DNA of 52,034 nucleotides from the NCBI GenBank assembly GCA_003223295.1, contig QHYM01000126.1, positions 1 through 52,034 of the forward strand. Reading direction: 5' to 3'. This stretch comes from Acidobacteriota bacterium. Lineage in GTDB: Bacteria; Acidobacteriota; Terriglobia; Acidiferrales; UBA7541. The notes under the pieces were generated by a model. That model saw nothing but the letters and a program-made list of their open reading frames with translations. It was not told the DNA's origin and made no database searches. Of the stretch, positions 6,325-46,592 are shown in pieces. The stretch's first letter is position 1. Every line of letters starts with the position of its first letter. Made by a program: the position numbers and the translations under genes.

Positions 6325-6834
6325 CTACATACCCTTCTGCAGGGGATAGCCCTTGCCGGCCCAGTCGGTGGCGAAGCTCGTGGGTATCACGAGCACGCGG
6401 AGTTTCTTCAAGCCCATGCTGCGGAGGGCGTTGTAGGCCGGGCGGATGTTGGGGCATTTATCAAACGGGCAGCAGCCGCAGTAGATGACCAGATCGGCCG
6501 AGCGGGGAAGCGTGGCGGCCCAGGCTTTCAATTCCGCAAGGCCCTGTTCCGTGGAAGCGGTCCCGTGAAAAGCTGCGTCGGGCACATGCCCGCCAACGTA
6601 GAGCGAGCGAAATCCAACAAAAAGAACAGTGGGTAGAGACGAACTTTTGTCCGTGAGTTCCTTGGCAAGCTGAGCGGGCTGCAAGGTTGCCGAGCTAGGC
6701 CAAGGGTCCGCGGGTTTCTTTTCGTCTCCACTGGCGGTCCTCACCGGGAAAGAGCTGATCGCCAACGCGAGTAGAAAAGGAAGGGATGAAACGAAAACGA
6801 AGATGAGAGAGCCATGCGTCCGAAAGCGAGACAC
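6325..6834 (-). CDS. Exported rhodanese-like protein with Cys-rich active loop
   Basis: 169 residues. The start is taken as GTG at 6832-6834 because a perfect AGGAGG lies 6 nt upstream; the longer frame to 6897 has no such support. Residues about 8-30 form a signal peptide or membrane anchor (SLIFVFVSSLPFLLALAIS). The C-terminal half is rhodanese-like, with VGGHVPDAAF, then DLVIYCGCCPFDKCPNIRPA, in which Cys119, 121, 122 and 127 cluster at the catalytic loop. A canonical rhodanese needs one Cys; four suggest redox or metal chemistry. It converges with the amidase, 37 bp apart. Confidence 0.8.
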   Translation of the reverse strand: MSRFRTHGSLIFVFVSSLPFLLALAISSFPVRTASGDEKKPADPWPSSATLQPAQLAKELTDKSSSLPTVLFVGFRSLYVGGHVPDAAFHGTASTEQGLAELKAWAATLPRSADLVIYCGCCPFDKCPNIRPAYNALRSMGLKKLRVLVIPTSFATDWAGKGYPLQKGM

Positions 6835-6981
6835 CAGAAGCCTCCTGATGGTTTTCGATTGTAGGCTGAAGCAGGGGGTCGCGGCTACTTGGAACACGAT
6901 GAGCGAGAGCGCGTTCCAACAATTGGTTCGACAGTGAGCTTCTGAAGAAGCGAAGCCGTTCGTCGCTGAGGAATAGAGGAA

Positions 6982-32584: not shown

Positions 32585-33685
32585 ATGAAACCTTTCACCC
32601 GAGCAATCATTGGGGCTGGGCTTTCGCTGATGTTCACAGCCGCTACGAGGGCGCAGTCGAACTGGGCGGTGGCCCCCGACAACCGCGGCGCGCTTTACTT
32701 CTGCGACATCCAACGCGACAAGGTGTGGCTGTGGGAGCCGCGAGGGCTGCGCCTGCTGTTTGATCACAATCACTGTCATACCCTGGTGCTCGGCTACGAT
32801 GGCTGGGTGTACGGAGAAAATGTGGGCGGCGAATCGCGCGCGGGAGGTGTCGTCGGGGTATGGCGGCTGGCGCCTGAAGGCAAGCAGGAGTTCTTGCTGG
32901 CTCCCACTGCAAGGCCTGACCCGAGCATTTGGGTTGTGCGCGATGCCAAGGGCAACACCTATGCGTGGGAGGGGAACCCGGAGACGAAGGGCCGTTCAAG
33001 AATCCTCGAGCGCTCGCCCCAAGGGGAATTAAGAGTTCTGGCAGGTGACTTATGGGGATTTGCCGATGGGGCCGGAAACACGGCGAAGTTTGGCCAGGTG
33101 GCTGCGATGGCGGCGACCGCTGACGGGTCGCTTTATCTGGCGGACGAAGGGAGTCTTCGGTGCGTCTCCGCGGATGGAACAGTCAAAACGCTACAGCGAG
33201 ATATTTTTTCTACCGTGGTTGGAGGGCTCCCGGGAATCGGTGGCCTTTACAATCATCACATGGGCATTGCGGTGGACGACCAAAGCGTTGTCTACGTGGT
33301 GGACTATGGCCGCAACCATATCCTTCGCTGGGATGCAGCGCACGGCACGCGTGTCGTGTTCCAGTCTCGCGGAGTAGCAAACTGGCTCAGCTCCGGCGGA
33401 TGGGGTTGGCGACCAACGGGAGTGGCTGTCGAAAAAAACTCCATCCTGGTCATGGAAGATTGGGGTTTGCCGACGTTCGCGGCAGAGTTGATCGGCAATC
33501 CTCGAGTGAGCCGTGTTTTGGCGGATGGTACCGTGGTGAAGGTGACGGCAGTGTCAAATACCGTGACGCGAATCTTCGCTGCCGCGATACTCCTGGTGCT
33601 CGGCTTAGCAATGTTTGCCTGGCGCCGCAACAAAACGAGAAGAAGTTCCACTTTCGGGGGAAAAGCAAAAGGCGAACAGGCCTGA
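32585..33685 (+). CDS. Exported NHL/beta-propeller-like protein with C-terminal anchor
   Basis: 366 residues. A signal peptide (MKPFTRAIIGAGLSLMFTAA, cut near TRAQS) is followed by propeller-like blades: RGALYFCDIQRDKVWLWE, VAAMAATADGSLYLADEGSL and GIAVDDQSVVYVVDYGRNHIL resemble NHL repeats. A single transmembrane helix near the end (IFAAAILLVLGLAMFAW) followed by Arg/Lys residues anchors it to the membrane with most of the protein outside. It is 38 bp after dcd but its role is unrelated as far as I can see. It converges on the DedA-rhodanese gene, 12 bp apart. Confidence 0.75.
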   Translation: MKPFTRAIIGAGLSLMFTAATRAQSNWAVAPDNRGALYFCDIQRDKVWLWEPRGLRLLFDHNHCHTLVLGYDGWVYGENVGGESRAGGVVGVWRLAPEGKQEFLLAPTARPDPSIWVVRDAKGNTYAWEGNPETKGRSRILERSPQGELRVLAGDLWGFADGAGNTAKFGQVAAMAATADGSLYLADEGSLRCVSADGTVKTLQRDIFSTVVGGLPGIGGLYNHHMGIAVDDQSVVYVVDYGRNHILRWDAAHGTRVVFQSRGVANWLSSGGWGWRPTGVAVEKNSILVMEDWGLPTFAAELIGNPRVSRVLADGTVVKVTAVSNTVTRIFAAAILLVLGLAMFAWRRNKTRRSSTFGGKAKGEQA

Positions 33686-33697
33686 ATTCACATTGGC

Positions 33698-34639
33698 TCA
33701 CGTGGAAGCATGGCCCGCCAACGGATAGCCACGCTCGCGCCATGCATTCAGGCCGCCTTCCAACGGCCGGATGCGCTTGATTCCATTCTTTCTGAGGAGC
33801 AGCGCCACACGGGCGCTGGTAGCTTCGTTCGGTCAAGTACAGTAAAGAACCACCTCACTATCCCGCGGGAGACGGTTGCTCTTTTCCTCGAGCTCCTTGG
33901 CCTCCATGTGCAGCGCTCCGGGAATGGTCTCCGGCTCAGCTTCGAAATCCATCGAATGGCGCAGATCCACGATCGTGACCGGTTCTCCCGAATCAATTTT
34001 TTTCTTTAATTCATCCACGGTAATCCGCGCGATACGCAATTCCCGGAGGAAGCGCTGGCGGGCGACAAATTTGTAGCCGATATAGGCAGCCAGGGCGCCG
34101 GCCATCAGCACAAGAAGCCAGCCGCCAAGCGAAGCCAGACGCGCCGCAACGCGCTCAATCTCGCCGCTGAAGGCGTACCCTACTCCGAGAAAAGCGCACG
34201 CCCACAGCGCCGAACCTATGGCGTCAAACAACAAAAAGCGCCGGAAGCGCATGCGAAAGACTCCCGCAAGCGGCGGCGTAACCAGCCCAAGACCCGGCAA
34301 AAACTTCGCCAACAAGAGCGATCGCGCTCCCTGCTTGGAGAATATGCCTTCCGTCCGCCGCACGCAGGAATCCGGCTCGAGCGAAATCCGGCAGAGAAGC
34401 TGCAGAATCTTGATGCCTTTGTGGCGTCCCAGCTGAAACCAAACGGAATCCGACGTCAGCGCACCTAACACCGCGAACAAAAGTGAGGCAAAGAAATTAA
34501 GTTGTCCCGCGCCGGCAAGGGCGCCCGCAGCAAGCAGCAAAGGCATTGCGGGAATGGGAACGCCGATCTGTTCCACGAGAACCCACGCAAACAATACCGC
34601 GTGTCCATGGTGGATGAGGAAATCGAAGGCGCGATGCAT
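33698..34639 (-). CDS. DedA-rhodanese fusion, candidate selenoprotein (in-frame UGA as Sec269)
   Basis: 313 residues if the UGA at 33833-33835 is read through, 268 if it stops. Residues 1-200 are a DedA (SNARE-associated) membrane domain with EQIGVPIPAMPLLLAAGALAG and AKFLPGLGLVTPPLAGVF. Residues about 215-313 are a rhodanese domain: VTIVDLRHSMDFEAEPETIPGAL split across the domain start, then EVVLYCT, UGA, PNEATSARVALLLRKNGI, IRPLEGGLNAWRERGYPL. The UGA falls where related fusions are expected to have Cys in a YCxCPNEA loop. Cys267 is intact. The downstream frame is perfectly rhodanese-like. A SECIS-like hairpin follows. The alternatives are a nonsense mutation or a sequence error. It is last in an operon, after the nitroreductase. 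No clear ribosome binding site. Confidence 0.8.
33800..33818 (-). promoter_or_regulatory. Candidate bacterial SECIS element
   Basis: On the minus-strand mRNA, CAGCGCC (33818-33812) and GGCGCUG (33806-33800) form a perfect 7-bp stem closing the loop CGUGU. The loop begins after 21 nt from the UGA. Bacterial SECIS rules ask for an apical loop 16-37 nt after the UGA with a G among its first two bases, and both are met. It lies inside the coding sequence, as bacterial SECIS elements do. Confidence 0.6.
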
Positions 34640-34666: not shown

Positions 34667-35272
34667 TCACTTGGAAGCGAAAGGAGCAGTATGCCCCCAA
34701 CTGCCCGTCATTACGAATTCGCGGATCGGCTTGCGTGTCCTTGGCGCCAATTCTGACTTTCGGAAGTCTTCCGGGAGAGTTTGCGGGTCGCCGGGATATC
34801 CGATGGCGATTGCCGAGACGGGATCCCAGCCCTCGGGAATCCCGAACTCCTTCCGGGCCTTATCATGGTAAAAGCCCGCCATCTGATGAACGAGCAATCC
34901 GCGTGAGGTAGCTTCCGCAGTCAGTTGCGCATTAGCCGCGCCGACGTCATGAACGGCCACGGGGTTCGGCGTACCATTGTGACTGAAGTTCCGGCGCGCC
35001 ACAGAAATCGCCAGCACTGGTGCGTTCTTGGCCCATTTTGCGTTGAACTCCACCAGAACGCTCAACATTTTCCTGCAATTTTCTGCATCATCCTTGGTGG
35101 CGACGAGATACGACCAGGGCTGGTCGTTATAGCTGGATGCCGCCCAGCGCGCCGCCTCGAAAAGGCTGGCGAGGACCGCTGGTTCAACGGTTTTGTCCGA
35201 GAATGCTCGCGGGCTCCAACGATTGCGGATGAGATCGTGTACGGGATAGTCCGTTACTGCTGCTTTCTGCAT
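34667..35272 (-). CDS. Nitroreductase-family flavoprotein
   Basis: 201 residues. NRWSPRAFSDKTVEP and FEAARWAASSYNDQPWSYLVA are the FMN-binding N-terminal signature; a later AHDVGAANAQLTAEATSRGL-like helix (starting VHDVGAANAQLT) and WDPVSAIAIGYPGDP complete the family fold. It reduces nitro compounds, quinones or related acceptors with NAD(P)H; the physiological substrate is unknown. The start ATG has AGAGGG 9 nt upstream. It lies between yceI and the DedA-rhodanese gene (27 bp before it), suggesting a redox-stress operon. Confidence 0.9.
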   Translation of the reverse strand: MQKAAVTDYPVHDLIRNRWSPRAFSDKTVEPAVLASLFEAARWAASSYNDQPWSYLVATKDDAENCRKMLSVLVEFNAKWAKNAPVLAISVARRNFSHNGTPNPVAVHDVGAANAQLTAEATSRGLLVHQMAGFYHDKARKEFGIPEGWDPVSAIAIGYPGDPQTLPEDFRKSELAPRTRKPIREFVMTGSWGHTAPFASK

Positions 35273-44719: not shown

Positions 44720-45409
44720 TCAGGCTTTGCGGTCTTTGAAGAGACCAGCCAGGCGCTGCTGTACGCGCTCGACGGCCTGGAAGAATTCCTCAATTCCAAC
44801 CGTTTCGCGAACCACTTCGTGTGCGGCCGAGGCCGCGGTTATGGCATCGCAGAGCTGCGTAGCGCGGCGGATCCGTTCCGCCGTCAACAAGGGAAGCACC
44901 GAGTGCGGATCTTGGTTCCGCGATTGGCGCTCTTGCCACTCTTGGACGGCCCACGCCGTTTTGCGCACATTATCCACCGCGTCCCGGAATTCGCCGAGGA
45001 CGCGCTGATCGATTGCCCCGGAGCGCATGTCATATTCCAGCTTGACAAGGTCGGCGCAGGCTTTCTTTAACTGAAAATTCACGCCCCAAAAGGTATCGCT
45101 GGGGACAAGAAGCTCGACAGCAACCCCCAGCAAACGGCCCTCCGCGTTGCGGCGGACGCCGACAACACGGGCGTGCGAGGATTCATGTGAAAGAAGATTC
45201 GTTATCTCGATCTGATTCCCGACGGAGGGGTAACTCTTCATTTCCAGCAAGCCGCCCTGAGCATTCACTTCTGTAGCCTGCCCGGCCTCACGAACAATTT
45301 TGCCGTCTTTCTCCTGCCAAGTTGCTTCCACCGGCGAAATGAAGGGAAAACGCCTGCTCCGCCGCTTTCCCGCTGCTAGAGAAGATTGATTCGCGATTGG
45401 CTGTGTCAT
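44720..45409 (-). CDS. PilZ-like domain protein, paralog 1
   Basis: 229 residues from the ATG at 45407-45409, with GGAGG 8 nt upstream (this GGAGG sits in an earlier ATG, which is rejected). The N-terminal half has KRRSRRFPFISPVEATW and EVNAQGGLLEM, matching the R-x3-R and D/N-x-S/A-x-x-G pattern of PilZ c-di-GMP receptors in a degenerate form (the second motif has NAQGG). The C-terminal half is a conserved helical domain (VRKTAWAVQEWQERQ, LLTAERIRRATQL) that I cannot name. Its partner paralog is next door. A c-di-GMP receptor role is inferred. Confidence 0.72.
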   Translation of the reverse strand: MTQPIANQSSLAAGKRRSRRFPFISPVEATWQEKDGKIVREAGQATEVNAQGGLLEMKSYPSVGNQIEITNLLSHESSHARVVGVRRNAEGRLLGVAVELLVPSDTFWGVNFQLKKACADLVKLEYDMRSGAIDQRVLGEFRDAVDNVRKTAWAVQEWQERQSRNQDPHSVLPLLTAERIRRATQLCDAITAASAAHEVVRETVGIEEFFQAVERVQQRLAGLFKDRKA

Positions 45410-45470
45410 TTGAAGGACCTCCATAACGATGGAGCTGACCTATACAATTACACAACTCTCGGCAAAGTTT

Positions 45471-45609: not shown

Positions 45610-46290
45610 TCAAGCTTCCCGGAACAAAGTTGCGACACGTGGGTAAAGGCTCTCGACTGCCTGGTAGAACTCGCGCATTCCTGTAGTTTCGCGGGTTACT
45701 TCGTGCGCCTCCAGGTCCGTCTTTATGGCTAAGCTTAGCTGCGTGGCGCGGCGAATGCGTTCCGCGGTGATCAACGGAAGCACCGTCTGCGGGTCATGCT
45801 TCTGCAGTTGGCGCTCCTGCCATTCCTGGACCGCCCACGCGGTCTTGCGCACATAGTCCACCGAGTCCCGGAACTCTTCCAGGATGCGGGCGTCTATACC
45901 GCCAGACTTGATGTCCTGCTCGATTTTAACGAGCTCGGCGCTGGTCTTCCTCAATTGGAAATTCAAGCCCCAAAAAGTCTCGCTCGGAGTCAGAAGCTCG
46001 ACGGCAACCCTTAGGGCAGTCCCACCCATGGCACGGCGTGTACCCACAACGCGCACCTGGGTTGTTTGGCCCGAAAGAAGATTGGTCAGCTCCAGCTCAC
46101 TGCCGATCCTGGGGTACGTCTTCATCTCCAGCAGACCACCCAAAGCGCTTACTTCCATGGCTTGGGCCGTTTCTCGGACCTTTTGGACGCCGTATTCCAG
46201 CCACTTCGCCTCGACAAAGACAACCACGGGAAACCGGCTGCCCCGCCGTTTCTCTTTCATAGGTGGCTGTCCCGCAGTGCGCTCATCCAT
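45610..46290 (-). CDS. PilZ-like domain protein, paralog 2
   Basis: 226 residues from the ATG at 46288-46290, with GGAGG 8 nt upstream in the same arrangement as paralog 1. The same two-part architecture: KRRGSRFPVVVFVEAKW and EVSALGGLLEM (PilZ-like), then FWGLNFQLRKTSAELVKIEQ and VRKTAWAVQEWQERQ, LITAERIRRATQL. The two proteins share long identical blocks, so they arose by tandem duplication. Divergence is greatest at the termini. This copy lies upstream of paralog 1, in the same direction, with a strong hairpin between them. Confidence 0.72.
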   Translation of the reverse strand: MDERTAGQPPMKEKRRGSRFPVVVFVEAKWLEYGVQKVRETAQAMEVSALGGLLEMKTYPRIGSELELTNLLSGQTTQVRVVGTRRAMGGTALRVAVELLTPSETFWGLNFQLRKTSAELVKIEQDIKSGGIDARILEEFRDSVDYVRKTAWAVQEWQERQLQKHDPQTVLPLITAERIRRATQLSLAIKTDLEAHEVTRETTGMREFYQAVESLYPRVATLFREA

Positions 46291-46592
46291 AGGGAAGACC
46301 TCCGTCAAATCGCTTGCTGGCTTCTTTATACCACCTGATTCATCTAATTTCGCGGTGCGTAGCGATGGTGCCCCGGGTCCTCAAGGGCGCGGGGCGCAAT
46401 TAGTTACGTATTCTCGAAAAGCCCGCCGAGTTCAGCCGCGTGGTGATCGCTTTCGTCGAGCACAACAAACCGTTTGTAGGGGCGCAGCACTGCTGCAGCC
46501 CTTCTCTCTCGATCCTTTTGACTTTGATTGTGTAGGGGCGGGGGCTGCCCCGCCCGCTCCCCCATGTCAACGTAATTAGGCAACATCTGCCC
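46291..46592. other. Intergenic region with TAGGGGCG-type repeat elements
   Basis: 302 bp with two TGTAGGGGCG strings (46475 and 46531 regions). The second continues into a GC hairpin: GGGCGGGG (46536-46543), loop GCTG, CCCCGCCC (46548-46555). This resembles dispersed palindromic repeats. No gene is seen. Confidence 0.5.
46443..46485 (+). repeat. Direct repeat, copy 1, flanking the ADOP permease
   Basis: Begins GTGATCGCTTTCGTCGAGCA and ends TTTGTAGGGGCGC. It aligns over about 40 bp, with a few gaps, to the copy at 49181-49219. The same orientation is kept on both sides of the permease gene. Confidence 0.6.

Follow-up and report, generated by a model that had tools for sequence, protein, structure and literature searches.

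An open reading frame that joins a DedA-type membrane domain to a rhodanese domain is interrupted by one UGA codon, which raises the question of whether this codon ends the protein or is read as selenocysteine (Sec). The window, by which we mean the whole stretch of 52,034 nt that was analysed, is one contig of the genome of a soil acidobacterium; this source genome has 6.0 Mb, is 95% complete and is split into 481 contigs. Our results strongly support the view that the UGA is decoded as Sec in a protein of two-domain VTT/DedA and rhodanese anatomy.

Structure of the fusion gene and its product

The frame that runs from 34639 to 33698 on the (-) strand contains a single internal stop, a TGA at 33833-33835 located directly after LYCT. 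This UGA is codon 269 of 313 and gives the motif LYC-T-U-PNEATSARVALLL. Past it, the frame continues for 44 further codons up to a terminal TGA at 33698. The readthrough product (PNEATSARVALLLRKNGI...) would have 313 residues with Cys267 and Sec269, and one of the peptides C-terminal to residue 269 in this predicted product is IRPLEGGLNAWR. A standard annotation of the gene would end at codon 268. The frame, the coordinates, the Cys267/Sec269 numbering and the 313-residue length proposed by the first-pass annotation were all reproduced from the sequence, as was the 12-bp gap that it described between the fusion gene and the convergent ORF, the end of which lies at 33685.

33698..34639, (-) strand: DedA(VTT)-rhodanese fusion gene, 313 codons including Sec, plus the terminal TGA
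33833..33835, (-) strand: in-frame UGA, codon 269, very probably read as selenocysteine; UGA or UGC/UGU only in 90 homologues and 79 loci
34175..34555, (-) strand: VTT/DedA domain, residues 29-155 (Pfam PF09335, 59.9 bits, cut-off 33.9)
33734..34021, (-) strand: rhodanese domain, residues 207-302, across the UGA (Pfam PF00581, 56.6 bits, cut-off 22.2; Foldseek)
33839..33841, (-) strand: Cys267 codon, forming a CxU motif with Sec269; invariant in the alignment and aligned with 3tp9
34391..34393, (-) strand: Cys83 codon, VTT domain; invariant in the alignments
34364..34366, (-) strand: Cys92 codon, VTT domain; invariant in the alignments

Both domains scored above their Pfam cut-offs, which places the protein in PF09335 (DedA/VTT) and, with a Cys at the catalytic position, in PF00581; sulfurtransferase activity is a prediction. 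The AlphaFold model of the fusion protein was of fair to good quality (mean pLDDT of 81), and solved rhodaneses led the PDB matches returned by Foldseek for its rhodanese part, with persulfide dioxygenase-rhodanese and CoA-disulfide/persulfide reductase-rhodanese fusions among the matches. Cys267 aligned with the Cys in the catalytic loop of solved rhodaneses (3tp9), and Sec269 lies two positions further. Cys83 and Cys92 were found in all aligned Sec and Cys forms; one plasmid-borne CxC relative carries neither. An Arg/Lys-rich stretch follows the last predicted transmembrane helix, ahead of the rhodanese domain. Because the rhodanese domain and Cys83/Cys92 lie in or after such stretches, the positive-inside rule predicts that they face the cytosol.

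Codon 269 and the downstream hairpin among homologues

The fusion protein had a match in 276 of 399 sampled genomes of the class, and nearly all of the best same-genus matches contained exactly one internal TGA. We compared codon 269 across 90 loci of the class and found UGA in 48 and TGC/TGT in 42, with no other residue and no other stop (UAA, UAG) at this position among the 90. That codon 269 is TGA in 48 homologues, each with exactly one such stop, and TGC/TGT in the other 42 excludes a chance UGA. The terminal stops of the homologues are a mix of TAA, TAG and TGA. A second set, obtained by scanning a genome collection with conserved peptides and overlapping partially with the first, provided 79 readable loci from several phyla, 46 with UGA and 33 with Cys at codon 269, again without any third state. 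The UGA form occurred in Acidobacteriota, Rokuibacteriota, Methylomirabilota, Myxococcota, Pseudomonadota and SAR324, and the Cys form in Acidobacteriota, Nitrospirota, Verrucomicrobiota and Pseudomonadota. The first-pass annotation had expected Cys at this place in relatives and regarded other kinds of stop codon as evidence against its reading; Cys is what we observed (42/90 and 33/79), and such stops were absent from codon 269. An in-frame UGA that aligns with Cys in homologues, the pattern looked for in a selenoprotein gene, is thus present. Furthermore, a protein tree computed with the Sec column masked required at least 10 Sec/Cys changes, 6 of which are forced by well supported branches. 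Therefore, conversion between the two forms has been recurrent.

In one genome (G358), a Sec copy (L117) and a Cys copy (L078) of the fusion gene occur together and form a natural pair on which selenium-dependent replacement could be tested.

Bacterial SECIS elements are located immediately downstream of the UGA codon and have a small loop containing a G (PMC1088965). The hairpin announced by the first-pass annotation was recovered after codon 269 with seven of seven pairs.

33800..33818, (-) strand: SECIS-like hairpin, 7-bp stem (33818-33812 with 33806-33800) and loop CGUGU (33811-33807)

This hairpin, AGCGCC-CGUGU-GGCGCU, starts 17 nt past the first base of the UGA, and 2.6% of synonymous recodings of the source gene matched its 7/7 pairs. 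All seven stem pairs were present in 38/48 UGA genes of the class and six pairs in the other 10/48, and the 5-nt loop was mostly CGUGU or CGGGU. When synonymous codons were resampled within each gene, 4.0 pairs were expected in UGA genes, compared to an observed mean of 6.8/7; in Cys genes the observed value (4.5 pairs) stayed at chance level (4.2 expected). The codons that form the hairpin were frozen in UGA genes only (Ala+7 GCC in 48/48, Val+9 GTG in 43/43, Ala+10 GCG in 48/48), and Cys genes used several codons at these positions. The hairpin was also kept in twelve UGA genes of several phyla, with one compensatory pair, C-G to U-A, in that of a Myxococcota homologue. A stem-loop with a G in a small apical loop is thus found just 3' of the UGA and is absent or relaxed in Cys homologues. 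A search of the 52,034-nt window with Rfam at gathering scores returned no match.

In the rhodanese part of 27 same-genus UGA genes, dN/dS was 0.10 upstream of the UGA and 0.15 downstream, a value also obtained beyond the hairpin. Therefore, the frame that follows the UGA is selected as protein.

Selenocysteine machinery and alternative readings of the UGA

Family searches of the source genome located selA (571 bits), selB (350 bits, with SelB winged-helix domains), selD (349 bits) and a tRNA-Sec with a UCA anticodon and G73 (64.9 bits). A selenoprotein is expected in a genome with selA, selB, selC and selD, which the first-pass annotation proposed to look for, and all four are present in this genome. 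Together with the Cys homologues and the hairpin that tracks the UGA, they support its inference that Sec is used at codon 269.

The selD gene (contig C136:8380-9342) has its own single in-frame TGA (MVKAAGU...) followed by a stable hairpin, and is a second predicted selenoprotein gene of the source genome. Contig C465 bears two identical tRNA-Sec genes (L002, 1497-1595 and 1756-1854) with the same 100 bases after each; they are separated by a gap of 60 N, and the duplication is probably a scaffolding artefact, with one real gene.

Across genomes, selB was found in 82/91 of those with the UGA form vs 21/54 of those whose form has no stop, the states of the genomes being entered by hand (Fisher p=1e-10, a test that ignores kinship). 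When kinship was controlled with sister pairs, six independent pairs remained, which is too small a number to reach significance. Nine UGA genomes had no full selB match; a tRNA-Sec was detected in seven of them, and the other two were incomplete or had a weak selB match. Among 19 Cys genomes without selB, no tRNA-Sec was found in 14, a clear one occurred in 2 incomplete genomes, and 3 gave borderline scores (~50 bits). Many Cys-form genomes retain selB, as would be expected if they encode other selenoproteins.

Could the UGA be a plain nonsense mutation or a sequencing error that leaves the gene truncated or dead? Standard annotation does end at this codon, and a near relative (L163, QHYJ01000087.1) has a frameshift in the linker between the VTT and rhodanese parts, with the UGA motif intact; this frameshift may be an assembly error or a real split. 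Against this, the same codon is UGA in 48/90 homologues of independent genomes and never UAA or UAG, the downstream part is under purifying selection and the hairpin codons are frozen. We rejected a pseudogene on account of the alternation at codon 269, the frozen hairpin codons and the dN/dS after the UGA, and give this explanation virtually no chance. Decoding of the UGA as Cys has a precedent, as selC*-type tRNA-Cys with UCA anticodons are known in some bacteria (PMC7609411), and relatives do have Cys at the aligned position. However, the tRNA(UCA) located by the family searches scores as tRNA-Sec and has G73 rather than the U73 of tRNA-Cys, and the genome contains selA and selD. An altered code in which UGA specifies Trp or Gly conflicts with the use of UGA as the terminator of many normal genes of the window, including the fusion gene itself, and with the relatives, which have Cys and neither Trp nor Gly. 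Altered code and UGA-to-Cys decoding were both rejected on the basis of the G73 tRNA-Sec, selA/selD and the use of UGA as an ordinary stop, and we regard them as extremely improbable.

The UGA could also act as a selenium-dependent switch, yielding the full fusion with selenium and a 268-residue protein lacking the rhodanese end when selenium is absent, both forms being meant. According to a passage of PMC4513850, bacteria recode UGA incompletely (30-40% in vivo) and require sufficient selenium to do so, which is consistent with such a switch, as is the VTT domain lying complete upstream of the UGA. However, because the UGA falls within the rhodanese fold, this domain would be left broken at the end of the short form, and Cys forms devoid of any switch are common; we consider a switch quite improbable. 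Another alternative holds that the fusion protein handles selenium or sulfur itself, as a perselenide or persulfide carrier or importer, and is not a redox enzyme. Both sulfane sulfur and selenium can be carried by rhodaneses, and selenite uptake in Cupriavidus metallidurans has reportedly been tied to a DedA protein; the two points speak for this role. However, no sel genes adjoin the fusion gene within the window, and since Cys-form homologues occur in many genomes where no selB was detected, a dedicated selenium role is unlikely. We consider this alternative as a whole rather improbable.

Proposed role and comparison with known systems

With the UGA read as Sec, the SelA/SelB/SelC/SelD pathway would decode it under the guidance of the SECIS hairpin just downstream. 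Cys267 occupies the usual sulfur-carrying position of rhodaneses, with Sec269 as an added partner. Cys267 may take a sulfane sulfur or attack a disulfide or persulfide, and Sec269 would then resolve the Cys267 adduct as a Cys267-Sec269 selenylsulfide. The putatively cytosolic rhodanese domain would thus act at the membrane as a fast enzyme of thiol/selenol redox chemistry or of persulfide processing, and the invariant Cys83/Cys92, also predicted to be cytosolic, could plausibly relay to the VTT domain. This specific chemistry of the Cys267/Sec269 domain is a tentative proposal. From its domains and residues, we infer that the protein may be a membrane-anchored sulfur-transfer or thiol/selenol redox enzyme, which is the role that we favour. 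It is doubtful that a selenylsulfide switch in the rhodanese domain gates, or is powered by, a lipid- or solute-moving DedA domain via the invariant Cys pair; if true, such a link would couple selenium redox chemistry directly to the transport of membrane lipids in soil bacteria that are abundant.

For COG0586 flippases, a passage of PMC10127716 gives as criteria acidic residues at the tip of the first reentrant helix and two Arg at the second (Arg130 and Arg136 in YghB). With positions matched to YghB by eye, Glu23 was mostly kept in the fusion proteins and the second acidic position was variable; Lys112 was invariant at the first Arg position, and position 118, at the second, was variable (G/S/N/A). 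With Lys in place of the first reentrant-helix Arg and no Arg at the position of the second, a canonical undecaprenyl-phosphate flippase role appears less likely for the fusion.

The gene neighbourhood includes a possible operon partner.

34667..35272, (-) strand: nitroreductase-family gene (Pfam PF00881), 27 bp upstream on the same strand

This family adjoins the fusion gene in 11 acidobacterial loci at a median distance of 27 bp, and local synteny within Acidobacteriota comprises MarR, YceI, nitroreductase, dCTP deaminase-like and peptidase-like genes. No convincing neighbour was common across phyla in the 79 loci, 16 of which have a short-chain dehydrogenase upstream of the fusion gene. Elsewhere in the window, a predicted exported protein (6325-6897, (-) strand) contains a Cys-rich CGCCPFDKCPN motif that resembles a rhodanese active-site loop by eye and had no Pfam match at 1e-4. 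Two related neighbouring genes of ~230 aa (44720-45424 and 45610-46308, (-) strand), PilZ-type-like by eye, probably arose by tandem duplication.

The fusion adds a widespread Sec membrane protein that standard annotation would hide by ending at codon 268. Its hosts (Acidobacteriota, Rokuibacteriota, Methylomirabilota and others) belong to groups that are frequent in soil and groundwater. The fusion also gives access to the question of why DedA domains join rhodaneses, which the DedA literature describes as unclear: sister species naturally carry Sec and Cys versions, with which the part played by the second chalcogen residue can be tested directly.

A full-text literature search retrieved no paper joining selenoprotein, rhodanese and DedA. 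The Sec form of the DedA-rhodanese fusion appears to be undescribed, as no description was found in a literature whose coverage is incomplete and in which recent selenoprotein papers could mention one. The CxU rhodanese selenoproteins and the DedA-rhodanese fusions are each already known separately. Reviews of 2022 and 2026 give the CxU rhodanese form (TKB26178.1), with DedA absent. The closest likeness on the selenoprotein side is to NF041203 (rhodanese_LYCAU), a rhodanese with Sec two residues past the catalytic-position Cys (LYC-x-U). However, residues 200-307 of the fusion scored 90.3 bits against this model, under its curated cut-off of 115 bits, which leaves them outside the family, and the model has 126 positions and no membrane domain, whereas the rhodanese described here is fused behind VTT/DedA. 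TsoB (NF045694) is likewise a selenoprotein that joins a rhodanese-like region to another part, but this part is DsbD-like, the motif is UxxxxU with two Sec, and the model scored 12 bits against the fusion protein. The same two-domain order is found in COG0586 DedA-rhodanese fusions, such as P. aeruginosa PA1209, described as such a fusion in a passage of PMC12893004, and proteins named 'DedA family protein/thiosulfate sulfurtransferase GlpE'. PMC10127716, in its passage on rhodanese fusions within COG0586, calls their link to UndP unclear, and the fusion passages of these two papers mention no selenocysteine. Plasmid-borne relatives annotated as such fusions show a CxC loop at the corresponding place, and most of them carry Cys83/Cys92. 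In contrast to the protein described here, these COG0586-type relatives have Cys, not Sec, at position 269. We regard the fusion as real and well supported: its architecture is new, and it forms a group, likewise new and widespread, near the known CxU rhodanese selenoproteins.
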